A stretch of 64,000 nucleotides of DNA from Arthonia radiata (taxonomy: Eukaryota > Ascomycota > Arthoniomycetes > Arthoniales > Arthoniaceae): positions 620,001 through 684,000 of the forward strand of contig PSQN01000010.1 of the NCBI GenBank assembly GCA_002989075.1, read 5' to 3'. The notes under the pieces are model-generated. The model saw only the letters and a program-made list of their open reading frames with translations. It ran no database searches and had not been told where the DNA came from. A program made the position numbers and the translations under genes. Below, piece by piece: positions 7,040-52,048 of the stretch (the stretch's first letter is position 1; each line of letters begins with the position of its first letter).

Positions 7040-9201
7040 CTAGACGCCCATTCCTCTGGCCATGTTCAACGCCTGTTGCAGGCGCTCGATCCTGGCACTG
7101 CACTCCGCTCGAGCAGTTGACGTTACGGAAGTCTCCTCGGCAATATTCGCCAGCTCAACATCTGACAGACTGTTGACGAACCGTGGATTGAATATCTTCA
7201 CGGGTCCACTCTCGCCCAAGAGTTCGGTCTCGACGACCCCGTTGATGACGTTGTCGACGAAGCGTTTCAGGGACACTTTGTAGTACGCTTTGAGGGCGTC
7301 GTGGATATCGTTGACCGCCTGATCCTCGTTCTTAAGGTTAGCCGCGCTCAACATCTTGGTCATGTCGATATTGACGGTGGCGCCGGTGGTAACGCCAATG
7401 TTCTTAAAGCGTGCCATGGTCCTCTCCTCCCGGCACTTGTGGAGAGTCTCGCTATAGTAGTCGTTCGCGGTTTTGAGGACGTTCTCACGCTCGTCGCTGA
7501 GGTACTTGCGCAAACTCTGGCGAGCTTTGTTGAAAGGCTCCTCATACCGCAGCTGAAGGATAGCGAGGATGCTGCGGCGCACGTCTTTATCAGGGGCAAG
7601 CAGCGCGAGCAATTCTTCGTTGAAGCTCTCGATTGCGTGCACGGTCTTGTCGAAATAGTCAACAGCGATGCCCTCCCACTTCACCGTCTGCTCCTGGAAT
7701 GTCATGCGCAACATGAAGGGATTCACCAGTCCGGGTAGCTCGACACCGCGGTTGTCCATGTAGATAGTCTTGAGCCACTTGTAGATGTGTTGCTCTGTAG
7801 TCTTAACTGCGAATGGATTGTATGGCCGAGCATATTCTTCATCTTCCTGGTCCTGTACGGTGCGAAAGACATGAGTATGACCATTGACTCTCATGCGGCT
7901 TGCAAACTCATCATCAAGGTCGCGAAGCTTTTTGCGCAGCTTCAACAACGGCCTCCCACGTGCCACAGTATCGTAAGTGCCGCTCAAAGCATCCTCGACG
8001 CGCTTCTGACACAAGGTAGCGATATCGCCGAGGAATCTGCGCTGTTCATTCGCCGACTGACGGGAGTCACCCAGTTGCTCGAGCTCTCCGACACTCTCCT
8101 GCTTGCGAGTCTGAAGCTCGCGTACCATGCTTGGAAATTCTGCGCGTATGTGGTCCGAGAGCAACTTGCCCAGGTACTCCTTGAGAGGACCCACACCACG
8201 CCTATCACGGCCGAGACGGCTCCATGGCTTCTGGTTTTCAAAGAACGCCTTCTCATTCTCATGACGCTGTGGGATCGAGACGTTCTTGTTGATATCATCC
8301 GTTGAGCGATTCTTCACGGCAAACCAACCGTGTTTGAGAGGCTGGTACTTGTTCTCAGCAATTTTCATAACAGATTCTTCGTCGCCGCTAGCAACTGTGT
8401 CACACTTTGTCACGATTCCGACAGTGCGCTGACCATCGGGATCTGCTTCGCGAGCAATCTGAAACACTTCCTGTGCCGCGAGATTGGCCAAGGCATTGCA
8501 GACGGCAAGAACGATTGTGCGCTTGTCGTCGACGTAGCGCTTGATCAGATTACGAATGATGACCTTGTCCTCGGAGGTCTGGAATTGTGTAGGATTGTGG
8601 AAGAGACCAGGGACATCGACCACGCTCAGATGGTGCTGTTCTGGTCCACACAGTTCAATCCGCACAATGCTGTCCGTGAATCGCTTGCTCGGTATGTTCT
8701 TTTCATCCAGCTTCGCACCTATGGCTGGGAGGCCAAGATATTCGGAGGCTTCGCTGAGTATCGTGCTCAATGCATTGCCGTCGAACTTTTCTTTCTTAAT
8801 TGTTCGACGAAACTTCTCAATATTCGCCTTTGCTTTGGCGTCGCTAGCTGAGCTTGGACCGGGTATGATATCAATCACTGCCCCAGCCTGCTCTGCTGGG
8901 CGGCGACGAAGGATGATCTGAGTAGCAAAGCGGGTACAGACGTCGCTGGAGATGGGGAAGGAGAGCCCGGTGATGCCCTCCAGCAAGGAGCTCTTTCCAC
9001 TTGATTGGTCACCGACGACGACAAGCTGCGCGGCAATGTCAGTGCTGGGTGGAGATTGATGTCCAAGGAGCTTACCTGAGGAAGTGAGATGTCTCCTGTG
9101 ACGCCCGTCTCGCGGATCCTGTCAATGGCTTCCAAGTATTTCACGCGCTCCGGTCTGTCGAGCTCGTCCATTGTGTCTTTGTGTAGTCCTTGAGACTCCA
9201 T
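7040..9201 (-). CDS. Mx-like dynamin-family GTPase
   Basis: A 703-residue protein from two exons (9201-9076 and 9025-7040); the 50-base intron has a GTAAGC donor and a CGCAG acceptor and is in phase 0. Exon 2 opens directly with the GTPase domain: G1 GDQSSGKSS (residues 47-55), G3 DVPG (about 179), G4 TKCD (about 248). The middle/stalk region and a C-terminal GED-like helical region (about 600-695) follow. There is no PH domain and no proline-rich tail, and the length fits fungal Mx-like dynamins rather than Vps1 or Dnm1. Such proteins oligomerise on membranes or assemblies and hydrolyse GTP; the fungal paralogues are mostly uncharacterised and often vary between strains. The ATG at 9201 is the first in frame. 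The gene looks intact, unlike the helicase beside it. Confidence 0.9.
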
Positions 9202-20121: not shown

Positions 20122-21641
20122 TCATTCCAAAAATCGCATGAAAATCTCGTAGAACTTCTTAAGCCAACACTGCATCGGAAGGAATTTCCGATTTCTGCAA
20201 GCTGAGTCGAGCTCGAAGCTCCAGCTCATCAAACCGTCGCGCCAGGTGAAGAAATCTCGTTCAATGTCCAGGCGCAGACTGTCACCAGGGCTCAGAGCCT
20301 CTCTGAGACACCCTTCCAGCAGGCAAAGAATTTTTTGAGACTCTTCCTGTTTAGAAGACTCGATGCTTTCAAGTGCAATAGTGAAAGCTACGGCATGACC
20401 CCATTCTTGCGCGGAGCGAATGATGTATGATTTGACGGCCTGGGCCCACCACGACCTCAACATGAAGACAGTACCACTCAGTCCCCAGGGAACTTGTTTG
20501 GAGTCTCGCTGCAATGCAAAGCGTAGCATGAGGAGGTTGAACAAGCATCGAGGTCGCTGTGCACGTACGTCCGCCTCAAGAATGTCTTGGATCTCTGGAG
20601 ATTGTTCCAGCCGGGCGAAGGGACTTGACTCTAAAGCAGAGATGGCTCGCTTAGTCATTTCGGCCCATGCTCTAAAAAGAGGCTGGACATTATGTTTGTT
20701 ATTTGATTCTGAGTGCGTCATGGAAGCATGAAGGTGTTGAATGCTCTCTGACTGTAGGGCTCCAATGAGGTAAGCCCGTGAACGTCCAATGACTATATTG
20801 GCTGGATCTCTATCGAAGTTTCCTCCGATCTTCATGTGTTGCCAACTTTGATCGGCAGCTTGCGCCTTTTGTCTTGGTGTTTGATCACTACGGGTTATCT
20901 ATAAGTCGTCAGGCATCGGCGGCTGCTCCGCAGTCGGCGGTCGCCTCATCATATCTTCAAACCTCTGCCCGACAGGCTTCTTGCGATAGAACTCTGCGAG
21001 ATCGTTGGCGGTGATGGGCTCCCCTCTCAGGAAAAGCAAAGGGGGCGGAATTCCATGCTCTTTGTGGCGTTGATATGCATGGACAGCTGCCCTCATCTCA
21101 TGCTCACGTCGAGACTTCTGGAAGCCCCATGCCTTTGTACGCTGACGCAACATGCGCTCTGTATGCTTTGTTAGATAATATTGAGCTATCGCTTTCGCAG
21201 CCTTCATATTGAAATAGTCTCAACGTTTCTCAGGCTGATGTCAAGACTTCAATGGTGAACTTACGTGATATAGCGTCCAGAGTCTTCTCGCAACACTTTG
21301 GCCACGTCAGGCAGCTTCATGCGACGAACCTTATAAAGGTCATGAATCCTTGCCCTCATCTGATCCCAATCACTTTTCGTGGGTACAGTATTGAACCTTA
21401 GGGGACTGACATCCTGTATGTCAGCTGACCCAGATTTCGCATCACATTCTGAGGGACGCATGGTCCTGGGCGCTGATCTATGTGCCGGACGCTCTTGCAT
21501 AGTCTGAAAGTTGTCTGTCGGTTCAACTGGGGTTGAACAAGGCCCGCATGCTGAAGGTCTGCTTGTTATGGCCTGGGGGTCACAGACATCGTGATGCCCA
21601 CACAGATATTTGGCCAGTCGCCGATTGAAACTCGAGTCCAT
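20122..21641 (-). pseudogene. Clr5-domain protein gene, probably broken
   Basis: The first exon starts at the ATG at 21641. It carries, near its end, the N-terminal part of a Clr5 domain (DWDQMRARIHDLYKVRRMKL), and the next frame continues it with TERMLRQRTKAWGFQKS, the KWGxxKN-type end. Clr5 is a short DNA-binding-like domain found on many filamentous-fungal proteins, named after a fission yeast silencing factor. A strong GTAAGT donor ends exon 1 at about 21267, but no AG acceptor restores the phase of exon 2. A single TAG at 20899-20901 then separates the Clr5 exon from a further 237-residue open stretch in the same frame (20835-20122), a helical region typical of the C-terminal part of these proteins. 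Two independent defects suggest a recent pseudogene; an unusual intron or a sequencing error remain possible. Confidence 0.65.
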
Positions 21642-22033
21642 GAGATCGGTCGCGAATTACAAAAGATGATGACAGCGTTCCGATGCGGTCTGCAGAGATC
21701 TCGGAGTGAGTAATTCTTGATAACGGCGAAAAAATCGATGAGCGTTAGAGGGCAAACCCTCAGTAGATCAATGCGAGAGCTTTCTAGCAACGAATCTGCG
21801 CATTTTTTACCACCAGGAACGAATTTTGTGTAAGTTCGAAGGGGGTTCGCAACCGGGTGCGCCTGTTCCGCTTTGAAGCCTGCGTCAGGCAAACGACAGC
21901 ATGCGCAACGATTGGCTGGGCGAGCGACCCTGCATGAGCGTACGCGGGCGCCACTACCAGGGCGAATAGCCTTTATGAAAAAGGATCAACGGAGGCGTTG
22001 TCGGATTGTGAAGGCCTCTACCGAACAAATTCT
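21642..22033. other. Intergenic left flank of the repeat array
   Basis: 392 bases upstream of the Clr5-domain gene. An overlapping minus-strand open frame (21892-21566) is not supported by motifs. Confidence 0.4.
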
Positions 22034-22718
22034 TGGAAAACGACTATGCTAGCAGACGGAGCATAAGGGCAGCAGCTCCATCCCACCAGGACGGCACTTG
22101 CACCTTTGATTAACGTCTGTGACCAGCGACTTAGAGAACGACCATGCAGCGCTGTCGGAACACACTTCATTTGCCGGAAATGCATTCATGTGGCGTTGGA
22201 GAACGACCGTGTTATGTATAGCGCTGATGCAAGTCCTTGTCGGCATCCATCATGGCTTGGAGAACGACCATGCAGCGCTGTCCGAGGCCTCGTCGCGGCA
22301 AACGAAGCACTCATCGTGGCTTGGAAAACGACCGTGCGGCGCTGTTGCCGCGGGGGCTCGTCATTGTCTGGAGAACGACCTTGCAGCGCCTGTTGGGTCC
22401 CCGTGGTCGATTGGCGCGGGCATCGCACCTGGAAAACGACCATGCAGCGCTTATGCAAGGTCTCGCCGCTCCGGCCCCTGGAAGCCATTACACAAGAAAA
22501 CCAACCATGCAGCGTGTCTCGCTATCGAGATCCCTGCTCTTTTACCGCAAAATTGTTCCGGCATGGAAAACGACCACGCAGCGCTTTTGCAAGGTCTCGG
22601 CGCTAATGCCCTGATTCTTGAAACCCATTTTCCAAGGGAAAGGGAAACGACCATGCAGCAGCCCCTCAAGCCGTGTCTGATCAGACGTCCATTGACGTCG
22701 GGGAAACGACTCCGCAGG
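22034..22718 (+). repeat. Array of about 11 direct copies of a ~20-bp core
   Basis: Copies close to GGARAACGACCRTGCAGCGC begin near 22034, 22131, 22196, 22257, 22321, 22368, 22428, 22493, 22563, 22640 and 22698. All are in the same orientation, spaced 97, 65, 61, 64, 47, 60, 65, 70, 77 and 58 bases. The core is strongly conserved, while the ~40 bases between copies are mostly unrelated. Two or three spacers share GCAAGGTCTCG-like sequence (22454-22465, 22587-22599 and weakly 22229-22240), so an old ~60-base unit is likely. Spacings are not multiples of three and the core falls in all three frames, so it is not coding repeat. One outlying direct copy lies at 23053-23074 and one inverted copy at 23221-23238. 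Confidence 0.85.
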
Positions 22719-22848
22719 TCGGCAGAGCTCCATCCCCAACGCCCTGTGAACTTCATCTGATGTTATTACGGAGGGAGGGAGGCATGAGATTCAAATGATG
22801 ACTCTTACGCTCATTGGTCGCTGTTCCTTGTCCAAGGAATAGGATCAT

Positions 22849-22899
22849 CAGCCTTCCAAAGAAGACAGCCTTCCAAAGAAGACAGCCTTCCAAAGAAGA
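22849..22899 (+). repeat. Three tandem copies of a 17-bp unit
   Basis: CAGCCTTCCAAAGAAGA occurs three times head to tail, essentially perfectly, ending in a variant (AAGAGG). It lies 130 bases beyond the core-repeat array. Perfect identity between units points to recent slippage. Confidence 0.85.
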
Positions 22900-23424
22900 G
22901 GGGATGCTGACGACGGCATGGATCGGTGTTCAGTACTGCGGGTATGCGCGCATATCTCTTGGAGATTCTTTCTCATTGTGGGACTGGGGCCTGCCCGTAC
23001 TAGCAACCTGCAGTCAAGATCGCACGCACGCAGGCGCGTGGGACACCGCACGTTTGGAAAGCGACCGTGCAGACTCTCATGGTAGTCCAGGTCCCTGCCG
23101 CAAATGACATTAAACTTCATCTTGAGAACGGAACGTTGCGTACCTTCTATGGTATGTGTGTGGAGTGTTGACAACGTACCGATCTAACATCAGCGGCAGC
23201 TTCGATGCCCGAGGTCGTCCTGCACGGTCGTTCTCCCTCTCGCTGACCTAGCGGAAGAAGATCTCCGCGTTGCCTCAGTCCGTATGAGACGCCGCTTCTT
23301 CACACCTGGTCTGTCAACTATGAGCGCATGAGCGTCGTGGACCATGACTGGGAGAAGTGAGCCAGCTGCCTCGAGCACAGCTCCCACTGGGTCCCTTTTT
23401 CTTCCCCCAATACCGTGATCAACA

Positions 23425-23432
23425 TATAAATA
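23425..23432 (+). promoter_or_regulatory. TATA box upstream of the 85-residue gene
   Basis: TATAAATA, 185 bases before the ATG at 23617, followed by a CT-rich tract, the standard fungal arrangement for a strongly expressed gene. Confidence 0.55.
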
Positions 23433-23616
23433 CTTATCCTCCTCTTTTCTGTCTCTTCTAGCGTTCATCAGCATTCATCTCTTGCTATTTATTGTTCCTC
23501 CAATCGGAAGTTTGTCCCACAAGCAACACTCAAGCTCTTCGTCTTTGCACTTCAGACCCGATACAAACAAGGCCTCTACCATCAATATTCTCCCGTTTAT
23601 AATTGCGATCAGAATC

Positions 23617-23936
23617 ATGACAGACCAACCAGAACGTCAGCAAGGCGGCACCTCCGACACGAGGCCCGTCTCAGAAAGGACATGGTCAACCACAGCCGAA
23701 GCTGGTTCCCAATGTAACGGTCAGGATGGTCGTGGTGACGCCAGCACCGCCAAGGTTGACAAGGGCTCTGGTTCCAACGTAGAGTCTGCAGTCGACAGGT
23801 TCTTGAAGGAGGGAGAGAAGGACGCTCCTTGGAACGGGCACGCGGCATCCGGTCGCTCCGATGTACGTGTCCATTGGTGTCACTTAACTAGACGTATAAT
23901 GTCGTATACTCACTACGTATGCAGCCCCCTAAATGA
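23617..23936 (+). CDS. Small disordered hydrophilic protein
   Basis: Exon 1 23617-23862 and a 12-base exon 2 (23925-23936) join in phase 0 to 85 residues. The intron of 62 bases has donor GTACGT, a CTTAAC branch sequence and acceptor TGCAG. The second exon encodes only Pro-Pro-Lys and the stop. The protein is rich in Gly, Ser, Thr, Asp, Gln and Lys with no hydrophobic core. Its only structured-looking stretch is ESAVDRFLKEGEKDAPWN, a possible short amphipathic helix. No known family is recognised; the composition recalls small stress- or conidiation-associated proteins, which is a guess. A TATA box and CT-rich leader (plus a long alternate 5' frame that is leader, not protein) support a real transcript. 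Confidence 0.6.
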
Positions 23937-46571: not shown

Positions 46572-49004
46572 TCAACCCCAATGGATCAAAGTCTGCTTCT
46601 TCTTCCCCTTTCTATTCGCCTGCGCAGCCTCCCCGCCATCGCCATCAACCCCATTAGCAGCAGGCGGCGCCCCAAGAGCTCCGCCAGCCCACGGATTCGC
46701 CGGCGCCGGGCTTGTCATCCCATCCTTTCTAACCGGATTGCCCATATACCCCGGCCTCGAGATATTCATCCCCGGTTTCTGCGCCGCCGGCAGCGCAGGG
46801 AACATATCAGCTCGTGGCGCAGGGCCGGCTGTAGCTGTTCGCCTCGCTGGTTGCGGCTGGGCTCTCTGTGGGCTAGCGACGGCGCTCGGCGCACCAGTTG
46901 GCGTGAGTGGCTGCCATACAGGTTTACTTCGCGTCGTGCTCGCGCCAGAGGACAACGGTGGGAACGCAGGTCCACTTCTGCCACTTGCACCTGACGCGCC
47001 GGCGCTGCCCCAGCTACCAGATCGGCTGACTGCACTGCGACTTGACTGCGCGGTACTGCTCTTGAGCTTCAAAATGCGCTTGCCGCCTGCACTGCTCATA
47101 TAGCCGTTCGCGTCTGGTGCGCCACTGCCAGGCAGACTTGGGTAATCTTCGTTGATAGCGCGCCAATCATTCCAGGCTTTGCGCAGCTCATCGGCCTTGC
47201 CTGGAACTTCGAAGGCGTCGGCGAGCTCTTTAACGAGTGTGCCGAGATCGGAGTTGGAGCATTCGAAGAGTGCGAAGAAGGTGTCGATGAGCTGTTCGGC
47301 TGTGATTGTGCCGTTTTTGTAGGAGGTAATCTTTGAGCGGAATGTTGCGAGTTTGGGTTCGGAACCACCAAGGAGATTTGCGGCGCGCTCTGTGATGGAG
47401 GCGTGGCGCATGTATCTTGCTCGCTCAGCAGGTGTGAGGTTAGCGGAAGGGGCAGGCAAGGAGGAGTCGCCGGATGAGAGGTCAAGCGAGGAAATGTTGG
47501 GTAGCGAGGATGATGATGTCGTGACTGGATGAGCATGCGTAGGTAAAGGAGAAGTATGGCTGCCCTCTCGAGGCGCCATGATCGTCGCTGGCGCTGACAA
47601 GCTCGGATCAGGTCGTGCAGCAACAGCGTCATTACGCGTCAGCTGGCCGCCGAAAGTGCGGTTGCTGATGGACTGCGCTGAGTGAACAGCGAGCTGTTGT
47701 TGGCGCTGATATGCGAGCTCATCACGCCGCATAGGCTGGGCAGAGCTTGCAGGTAGTGGGGCGTTCTCATTTGCGTTCGGGTCACGACCGCGACCTCGTC
47801 CACGCCCCTCACGCCGATTGTTGCGCTGATCTTGCTGATGGCTGTTGCGATAGTCGAAAGCAGTCATATCGACACGGCGAGCATCACGGCGAGCGTCCTT
47901 GCTCAAGCCATTGGGGTGCGTTTCCAGTTGATGAGCTTTCAAATCCATTTCACTCGCGAAAACGGTGAACTTCTTCTCCAGGCACTCTCTGTCAGGGCAA
48001 AGGAAATGGTCTTTGCTGAAGTGAATCTCGAGCGCGTTGTAGTCTTGGTAATATTGGTGTTGAGGTTGGCCGAAACTCTGACGGTCGCAAATATGGCAGC
48101 GCTCATGACGATCCCGACAGTGGGTATATAGCTCGTCGTCGCCGTAGAAGCGCTGCTTGCAAAAGCCGCACTCTGGATGCCCCTTGAAGCCCGATTGATC
48201 GATCGCTCCAGGGTTGTCGTCGCCGTACCGCTCATGTTTCCGCAATGAGTTTGCTGTGAACAGTTCATGCTCATGTGTAAATACCTTCTTGTTCCTAGTA
48301 CAAAGGTCGCACATCATCTTTTGATGTTGTACCTTGACATGGCGATGCAGGTCTGGCCAGCCAAAGCAGGCAACGTCGCACGACGCTTCTGGGCAATTGT
48401 ACCGCAGCAAAAGCTCGGTGTCTAGGGATATCTCGTTCTTCTCATACTTGATGCCCAGGCTGTCATCGCTTTTCTGAAAATCTGTCGGCGTGTAGTCTTC
48501 GTATCGCTTCTCGGGATCGTCTGTGAAAATTACAAATTGTGATTCTGTTCGACAATGTGCGCAAGCCTTCGTCTTGTACAGCACCCGCAGTCTCAGCGCA
48601 CAAATGTGGCATGTTCTGTGATTGCACGGTGCCACAGATTGGTGCACAACCGGCGATGCGCATATAAAGCACACTTCAGCTTCTGCCTCGTCCACGGCTT
48701 GCTCCTCGACTTGCTCTGAAGTAGGCTGGGCTTGAGGCTGGGCTTGCGGCGGGACTTGAGGCTGAAATTGTGGAGATGTAATTCCCTGCCCATTGACGGC
48801 AGGCTGCCCATTTTGCATATCTCCTCGATAGCTGTTGCCTCGCTGGCGCTGTCTTGGACCTCCTCTTGCACTTCTTCCTCGTCCACGCTGCCCATCTCCA
48901 CGTGCTCGAGGTGCCCCACCCCCACCACGGCCGCGTTGAAATTGTGGGCGCGGAGGGCGCTGGCCACTGGTAGAGTCTGTCAAGGTTGCTGTCGAAGCCT
49001 CCAT
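46572..49004 (-). CDS. HEL2: E3 ubiquitin ligase HEL2/ZNF598, ribosome-collision sensor
   Basis: A single exon of 810 residues from the ATG at 49004 (MEASTATLTDS); the frame is open for 51 codons upstream but without a supported ATG. An RG/RGG-rich N-terminus (residues 20-60) is followed by a RING (about 112-151: CFICASPVVHQSVAPCNHRT, CHICALRLR, CAHC). Next comes a series of C2H2-like zinc fingers (YNCPEASCDVACFGWPDLHR, MMCDLCTRN, PECGFCKQRFYGDDELYTHC, RCHICDRQ), then a low-complexity Ser/Pro/Ala tail with a helical block (about 525-600). This is the Hel2/ZNF598 layout. The ligase recognises collided ribosomes and ubiquitinates small-subunit proteins, starting ribosome-associated quality control in the cytoplasm. 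Confidence 0.94.
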   Translation of the reverse strand: MEASTATLTDSTSGQRPPRPQFQRGRGGGGAPRARGDGQRGRGRSARGGPRQRQRGNSYRGDMQNGQPAVNGQGITSPQFQPQVPPQAQPQAQPTSEQVEEQAVDEAEAEVCFICASPVVHQSVAPCNHRTCHICALRLRVLYKTKACAHCRTESQFVIFTDDPEKRYEDYTPTDFQKSDDSLGIKYEKNEISLDTELLLRYNCPEASCDVACFGWPDLHRHVKVQHQKMMCDLCTRNKKVFTHEHELFTANSLRKHERYGDDNPGAIDQSGFKGHPECGFCKQRFYGDDELYTHCRDRHERCHICDRQSFGQPQHQYYQDYNALEIHFSKDHFLCPDRECLEKKFTVFASEMDLKAHQLETHPNGLSKDARRDARRVDMTAFDYRNSHQQDQRNNRREGRGRGRGRDPNANENAPLPASSAQPMRRDELAYQRQQQLAVHSAQSISNRTFGGQLTRNDAVAARPDPSLSAPATIMAPREGSHTSPLPTHAHPVTTSSSSLPNISSLDLSSGDSSLPAPSANLTPAERARYMRHASITERAANLLGGSEPKLATFRSKITSYKNGTITAEQLIDTFFALFECSNSDLGTLVKELADAFEVPGKADELRKAWNDWRAINEDYPSLPGSGAPDANGYMSSAGGKRILKLKSSTAQSSRSAVSRSGSWGSAGASGASGRSGPAFPPLSSGASTTRSKPVWQPLTPTGAPSAVASPQRAQPQPARRTATAGPAPRADMFPALPAAQKPGMNISRPGYMGNPVRKDGMTSPAPANPWAGGALGAPPAANGVDGDGGEAAQANRKGKKKQTLIHWG

Positions 49005-49751
49005 GTTCGCTGTTGTCTCTAAAAGTGATCTCTGAGCAACGTTGCTATCTCTATTTCTTGGACGGGGGAGTAAGTGACTAATCACTGATCGGTTGGGATG
49101 ATTTCGAAGCAGTTGCAGGAAGCTTCTGCAATGTTCAAGCGGTGGACGCAAAGGCAAGAAATGCTCCTCGGCGACGGCTTAATCAAACTGCGTTTGAAGC
49201 CTTTCAAGCGCTTGAGTTAGCAGAGTGTCGTTTGTGTGAAGACTCAATTGAGAGACCAAGATGACGCAGAAGTGAGATCGAGTGCTCCTGCCGCCTCACC
49301 CCTTCTTCCAGCCCCTTTTCCTTCCAGTCTTGATAAGTCTTCGTGCATTTTGGATCCCAAGGTCATAGCATGAAATAGGTGCAGGTGGGAAGAGTAAGAT
49401 GTGAGATTATGTCAAAGAGTCACCATCTTGGCTTCGTTGATATTCTCTATTGAGTAGTGACCGCCCTTACAAGGCGCTTCGCAAGCCACCTTGGAGTGAC
49501 CAACCAATCTTCGGCTCTGATAGAAACCACGCCTGGTTTCAGAGCGAGTTTGGGACATGCGCATGTCCTCTCACGAGTACTCTCGGCGGTGAATGACCGG
49601 CATCGTGGCTTTCGCTGTGGCTGGTGTGGGGCCAGTCGTGCAGGTGCCGCTGTTTGCTGTCCCACTAATAGACAAGGTGTGAGATGGCCACGTCTTGCTC
49701 GTCCAGCTTGATATTCCTTTTCTCTTTGCAAGCGTCTTTACCCATGATCGC
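49005..49751. other. Intergenic, 747 bases
   Basis: Promoter and leader of HEL2 (minus) and 3' flank of RAM2 (minus). Open frames on either strand here have no recognisable motifs. Confidence 0.45.
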
Positions 49752-51375: not shown

Positions 51376-52048
51376 CTACGTCCATCTTGCACTTAGTCCA
51401 CTAAAAGCGTCTGGACTGGCAGGTCTTCCACCCATGAACTGCACGCTTTCTCGACTTGCATGGCCGGGCGTTGGTGCGGGCTGTTGAGCGGAAGATGATA
51501 TCGCACCGAAGGGATTGTTCGAGTTGTTCATGATTGGCATCGTCACGCTCCTTTGTTGGGCGTGCGGTGGTGATTGAGGCAATTGTTGTTGTTGAGGCTG
51601 GCTTTGTTGTGTATTCTGAGCATAAGGACCAGGGGTATTGTAGAGAGCCAAGATTGAGTTCTTGTCATGATACTGCCGTTGCTGTGCATATTGTTGTTGT
51701 GGTTGCTGAAAGGACTGATACTGCTGCTGTTGCGATTGTTGCTGAAAGGCTTGCGGCTGCGGATTTTGGAAGAACTGCTGATCTGGGAGTTGATACATTT
51801 GCTGCTGCTGCTGTTGGCCATTGACATCAAAATAGGTCTGAGACTGCTGTTGCGTTTGCTGTGCGTATGGGTTCGAGCTCTGCTGAGGGAAGGCAGACGG
51901 ACTGTGGACAGGTTGCTGCTGGTGCTGTTGGAAGTAGTTCTGCTGAGGGGGCAACTGTTGAGTAGCGTAAGGTGATTCAGGAATTCCTGCAGGTTGCATT
52001 GGTAATGGATTCTGGAGCTGCCCGTTACTGCTCTGTTGTGGTTGTTGC

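Follow-up and report, generated by a model that had tools for sequence, protein, structure and literature searches.

Thirteen copies of a 17-bp motif between two divergent genes of the fungus Arthonia radiata, a candidate homotypic cluster of protein-binding sites

In the window, the 64-kb stretch of Arthonia radiata DNA that was analysed as a whole, a divergent intergenic region of ~2.1 kb (21501-23616, delimited by the flanking reading frames) contains all 13 copies of the motif described here. To its left, on the minus strand, lie the reading frames of a Clr5-domain gene (20899-21500; ATG at 21500 or 21461, stop at 20899-20901), with further exons possible; the Pfam Clr5 domain was recognized (E=7e-9) in two pieces joined by eye. 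To its right, on the plus strand, is a small gene (23617-23935; exons at 23617-23862 and from 23925 on, with splice sites placed by eye) predicted to encode a hydrophilic protein of 85 aa, which has no Pfam match. The sequence TATAAATA lies ahead of this gene, at 23425, 189 bp past the last motif copy. Gene starts and splice sites were read from the sequence, not from annotation. Clr5 of fission yeast is linked to chromatin-mediated silencing in PMC7608984, and by analogy a regulatory role is possible for the product of the left gene. A peptide pattern for the 85-aa protein matched 11 stretches in viral contigs, none of which was confirmed. Beyond both flanking genes, an amino-acid permease and an argininosuccinate synthase are encoded. 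Elsewhere in the window, a dynamin-family GTPase with Dynamin_N and Dynamin_M domains occupies a single long open frame (7040-9121, minus strand), and a protein with ZNF598-type RING, C2H2 and PAH domains (Pfam) is encoded at 46572-49178 (minus strand); the window also shows short introns and a Zn2Cys6/Fungal_trans_2 protein, features in keeping with a filamentous fungus.

An earlier note on this DNA described eleven direct copies of a 20-bp core. Searched with up to three mismatches, the 20-mer is found eight times in the window, where chance predicts 0.01 matches and none of 100 shuffles gave as many as eight; seven of the matches are within the array and one, inverted, is at 23217-23236. 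The part shared by the aligned copies is 17 bp long, GGRRAACGACCNTGCAG. With this shorter core, all eleven direct copies were recovered, on the plus strand at 22035-22717, and the copy count of the note proved incomplete: a twelfth site is located at 23056 on the same strand and an inverted one at 23220-23236, for a total of 13. Five of these 13 sites depart from the 20-mer at 4 to 6 positions and were recognized through the 17-mer, matching 12 to 15 of its 17 consensus positions.

The array copies, given here with their matrix (PWM) scores and all on the plus strand, are U1 (22035-22051, GGAAAACGACTATGCTA, 22.8), U2 (22133-22149, 25.3), U3 (22198-22214, 19.9), U4 (22259-22275, 28.4), U5 (22323-22339, 25.0), U6 (22370-22386, 25.8), U7 (22431-22447, identical to the 17-bp consensus, 29.3), U8 (22496-22512, 19.7), U9 (22565-22581, 26.8), U10 (22642-22658, 26.7) and U11 (22701-22717, 19.3). 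In U3, extra bases break up the 3' end ahead of CGCTGATGCAAG, a sequence similar to the CGCTTATGCAAG of U7, and U9 is 88% identical to U7 across 48 bases that include the core. Outside the array, U12 (23056-23072, plus strand, 24.9) is isolated, the array ending 339 bp upstream of it, and the inverted U13 (23220-23236, minus strand, 27.4), also a 20-mer match, ranks third of the 13 by score. A possible degenerate copy at 21919-21935 on the plus strand (GGCGAGCGACCCTGCAT) scores 11.2, under the chance maximum of the window, and was left out of the count. The start-to-start spacings of the 11 array copies are 98, 65, 61, 64, 47, 61, 65, 69, 77 and 59 bases, so that eight of the ten fall within the range of 58-77 reported previously. 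Over the 11 sites, helical phasing gave mean vector lengths of 0.14-0.34 for periods of 10.0-11.0, with no clear phase. Two other repeats were seen in the intergenic region. A separate minisatellite of three perfect head-to-tail 17-base units, CAGCCTTCCAAAGAAGA, lies at 22849-22899, between the array and U12, and the 23 bases just ahead of U1 (22011-22033) recur, perhaps by chance, with 78% identity at 23569-23591, shortly upstream of the ATG of the small gene.

The 13 sites span 1.2 kb, and elsewhere in the window none rises above the chance maximum. Because the matrix was built from these 13 sites, their own scores (19.3-29.3) are high by construction, and the informative features are the gap beneath them and the absence of others: the next best score in the whole 64 kb is 15.1, against a maximum of 18.4 in 40 simulated windows. 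Within the intergenic sequence (21505-23616), the scan yielded 13 sites scoring at least 19.3, the one at 11.2, and otherwise only scores of 4 or less. In a local-density scan of all 17-mers of the window, the array region leads with 10 neighbours (up to four mismatches), followed by a TGT-type microsatellite at 52035 with nine; TRF at score 50 did not report the array. Agreement of the individual cores with the consensus ranges from 12 to 17 of the 17 positions. All 13 sites agree at columns 5, 7, 9, 10 and 14, and column 12 varies freely, a combination of the kind seen in binding-site matrices; the mismatches to the consensus comprise 23 transitions and 5 transversions. The information content of the matrix, 22.8 bits, is inflated by the common descent of the units and is thus no measured specificity; taken at face value, it would be long for one fungal factor. 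The hexamer AGCGCT, which the earlier note singled out as self-complementary, is found in five of the 12 units on the plus strand (displaced in one of them) but is not a conserved palindrome.

Conservation has sharp edges. Pairwise identity among the 11 array units, aligned in register, runs at 0.76 (columns 1-5), 0.93 (6-10), 0.71 (11-15) and 0.53 (16-20) and falls to 0.28 for columns 21-25, which limits the conserved part to 17 bp instead of the 20 bp originally proposed; the bins covering the flanks, -44 to +62, range from 0.22 to 0.38. The mean identity of the core is 0.776 (11 units) versus ~0.25, the chance level, for the in-register flanks. When units of ~60 bases are compared, alignment is poorer for the spacers than for the core, whereas it should be equally good in the ordinary local minisatellite against which the earlier note had set its reading. 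Uniform decay was simulated on a star-like tree with 62-bp units and no indels, in 2000 runs per identity level. The best 17-column windows at overall identities of 0.40, 0.45, 0.50, 0.55 and 0.60 reached at most 0.576, 0.630, 0.687, 0.724 and 0.779, respectively, so that the observed 0.776 was never attained at 40-55% and was just attained at 60%. By arithmetic, the observed mix of 17 columns at 0.78 with the remainder at ~0.26 corresponds to an overall identity of ~0.40.

The description of the array as a conserved core with freer spacers is supported, with a reservation for close pairs given below. Still, some of the spacers are homologous once gaps are allowed. Gapped spacer identity is uninformative (0.739 for the real spacers versus 0.730 for shuffled ones), and alignment scores were used in its place. 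Of 45 spacer pairs, 12 aligned at p<=0.05 (100 shuffles each), where ~2 would be expected, the pairs not being independent. In local alignments with 300 shuffles, six of the 45 pairs, U2/U4, U2/U8, U2/U10, U3/U4, U3/U7 and U7/U9, had p<0.02. This residual homology implies that the array began as an old tandem repeat with a unit of roughly 60-65 bp, and the core seems to have decayed more slowly than the spacers after the duplications. In two closely similar pairs, such slower decay is not clearly visible: U7 and U9 differ at 1 of 17 core positions and at 6 of the following 31 bases, and U4 and U5 differ at 3 of 17 core positions, 3 of the 16 bases upstream and 2 of the 8 bases downstream. It is the more diverged comparisons and the isolated sites that carry the core-spacer contrast.

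Both isolated sites, U12 at 23056 and U13 at 23220-23236, keep 15 of the 17 consensus positions of the core. The flanks of these two sites were compared with the core-masked array and gave no match beyond shuffles (P 0.09, 0.68, 0.39 and 0.75), and neither did the segments 22760-23050 (P 0.78) and 23240-23420 (P 0.12); a seventh segment, 21780-22030, was left out because it overlapped the target. Retention of the core between unmatched flanks suggests that it can stand alone, in either orientation. U13, however, also forms an inverted match of 26 bases (81%) with U2, between 22124-22149 and 23220-23245, that takes in the core and has six bases, CAGCGA, in common at its far end. Since this match extends past the core, U13 is possibly a displaced unit rather than an independent site, and a common origin of U2 and U13 is possible; in both cases its core is retained outside the tandem block.

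The array could be an old, decayed minisatellite without any function, in which the core looks kept through ascertainment, recent duplicates and spacer indels that break the register. The gapped spacer homology, including that of U7/U9, U3/U4 and U2/U4 in the local alignments, agrees with such a history, as do the near-identity of U7 and U9 over 48 bases and the small difference between core and flank rates in U7/U9 and U4/U5. A core identity outside the uniform-decay simulations at 40-55% argues against it, as do U12 and U13, which keep the core while their flanks have no significant match, and the inverted copy, which simple tandem duplication does not make. We consider this explanation unlikely, although far from negligible. 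The opposition that the earlier note drew between the array and a minisatellite was too sharp: judged by the residual spacer homology, the array originated as a tandem repeat, which by now is largely decayed.

We favour, with moderate confidence, a different interpretation, namely, that the 13 copies form a homotypic cluster of candidate sites that a single DNA-binding protein would occupy, in the region upstream of both divergent genes. Of the options raised previously (a bound site, a structured RNA, or a recombination or conversion motif), the bound site fits best. Several copies of one motif occur in one regulatory region beyond chance, and the motif is more conserved than its surroundings (0.78 versus ~0.25 in register, within one genome), with little contrast in U7/U9 and U4/U5. 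In the proposed scenario, a segment of roughly 60-65 bp containing one site would have been multiplied by tandem duplication; the spacers would then have drifted and gained indels, the 17-bp core being kept through contact with the protein. Through occupancy of many sites, the protein might control how strongly the Clr5-domain gene, the 85-aa gene, or both are expressed, or their chromatin state. We infer protein binding, selection on the core and the identity of the responding gene from the DNA sequence. The length of the motif for one fungal factor and the lack of a clear helical phase speak against this interpretation. The predominance of one orientation, in 12 of the 13 sites (binomial P 0.003, the sites not being independent owing to duplication), is unneeded for a freely oriented site and is explained by tandem duplication.

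If the core is bound, the locus would be a readable natural record of a site cluster that grew by tandem duplication and was then held while the spacers drifted. The 17-bp motif, available in 13 natural variants, could serve as bait for a new fungal DNA-binding protein, and the Clr5-domain gene would be indicated as a possible target or regulator. The cluster as a whole is best explained as an element of a known kind whose motif has no assigned factor. One search of open-access literature with 13-14-base forms of the core found no description of the motif, the papers matched being all bacterial by title and abstract, and the matches obtained with peptide forms of the core were unrelated by title.

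Comparable clusters have been described in fungi. CreA sites of Aspergillus nidulans form homotypic clusters at the promoters of regulators, whereas homotypic clustering is uncommon in S. cerevisiae, according to PMC8844935. The array resembles the CreA clusters (as presented in PMC8844935) in having many copies of one motif upstream of a possible regulatory gene. It differs in that its motif is longer, has no assigned factor and points mostly one way with ~60-bp spacing. Multiplication of factor sites by promoter tandem repeats has been reviewed in general terms (PMC3899988) and is exemplified by TR34 and TR46 of cyp51A in Aspergillus fumigatus, where a promoter region of 34 or 46 bp is duplicated (PMC9239056). 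As in these alleles, a promoter segment that bears factor sites, putative ones in the present case, has been duplicated, so that copy number could tune expression; unlike them, the array has 11 units, and its spacers are mostly decayed.

Sites facing the same way might instead constitute a polar, protein-bound barrier of the RTS1 or Sal-box type, at which short sites stop replication forks or transcription. The orientation of 12 of the 13 sites would agree with this, and a precedent is available in region B of fission yeast RTS1, ~450 bp with four repeated motifs that are bound by the Myb-domain protein Rtf1 and act as a polar barrier (PMC10473836; PMC5368702). Like that region, as these sources describe it, the array places several motif copies within some hundred bp of non-rDNA; the likeness is one of architecture, and the array has one inverted copy, which counts against a barrier. 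The terminators of mammalian rDNA known as Sal boxes, which TTF1 binds (PMC11358750), likewise consist of a short, oriented, repeated site. The similarity of the core to the mouse Sal box is nonetheless at the level of shuffled cores (9 matches, P 0.67), and no rRNA family was found at the gathering score in the window. The sources disagree on the polarity of Sal boxes themselves, with arrest from both sides in PMC5368702 and polar arrest in PMC11358750. We regard a barrier as improbable. Of low probability, too, is a more specific version: a novel fungal DNA-binding protein with a long footprint, possibly the adjacent, self-regulating Clr5-domain protein, might use the oriented array as a chromatin boundary or as a polar replication or transcription barrier at a locus of ordinary protein genes, away from the rDNA and the mating-type locus. 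The architecture weakly supports the barrier, and the Sal-box comparison does not.

A recombination or gene-conversion motif, in which the core is kept as an initiator of exchange between the copies, appears very unlikely. Turnover of units did take place, and neighbouring cores have variants in common, U2, U3, U4 and U6 (but not U5) having G at column 4, and U10 and U11 having it at column 3; conversion tracts would be expected, however, to drag neighbouring sequence with them, whereas similarity stops sharply at the limits of the 17-bp core. Decayed subterminal transposase-binding repeats would be a somewhat poorer explanation still. Short repeats that face both ways, with free spacers, are found in DNA transposons, a description that suits the motif copies. 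Seven inverted pairs were found in 21400-23700, but six of these pair an array core with U13, the seventh, of 15 bases, lies within the region, and none flanks the array; no transposase domain was detected in the frames given to Pfam (sets of 10, 9 and 8). A structured or guide-type RNA array is hardly credible: a hairpin over GACC and the following bases appears in the lowest-energy folds of four of the ten folded units (U5, U6, U7 and U9), but folding z-scores of these 10 of the 13 units range from -1.42 to 1.43, those of the whole array are 0.15 (plus strand) and -0.78 (minus strand; 20 shuffles each), the 13-unit alignment has no consensus pair, and the Rfam scan gave no match at the gathering score. 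The units thus neither fold better than shuffles nor share a structure or a known family, and the structured RNA among the options of the earlier note gains no support.

A protein-coding repeat was also rejected. Three overlapping plus-strand open frames of 179, 216 and 128 aa run over the array, their summed length being unusual under a first-order model (P 0.001). When the cores were kept and the spacers shuffled or modelled, the number of plus-strand stops was ordinary (P 0.15 and 0.68; P 0.09 for the minus strand), and Pfam returned a best E of 0.28 for the three frames. The cores begin in all three frames, as had been pointed out, with starts modulo 3 of 0, 2, 1, 2, 0, 2, 0, 2, 2, 1 and 0 for the array copies in order. 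The mixed frames, the ordinary stop count and the lack of a domain bear out the exclusion of peptide-level selection. There is likewise no sign of RIP by the customary thresholds, the product and substrate indices being 0.38 and 1.39 in the array versus 0.61 and 1.29 in the window.

A pattern of two core copies matched no stretch in viral contigs and one in prokaryote contigs (L001:200-500, Bacillus sp. FJAT-27225). This Bacillus repeat has 13 bases in common with the core pattern, its spacers are unrelated to those of the array, and no open frame of at least 60 aa overlaps it; the match is taken as a coincidence. The starts of its units are 52, 49 and 43 bases apart, the first two units are nearly identical, and two units contain AACGACCCTGCAG.
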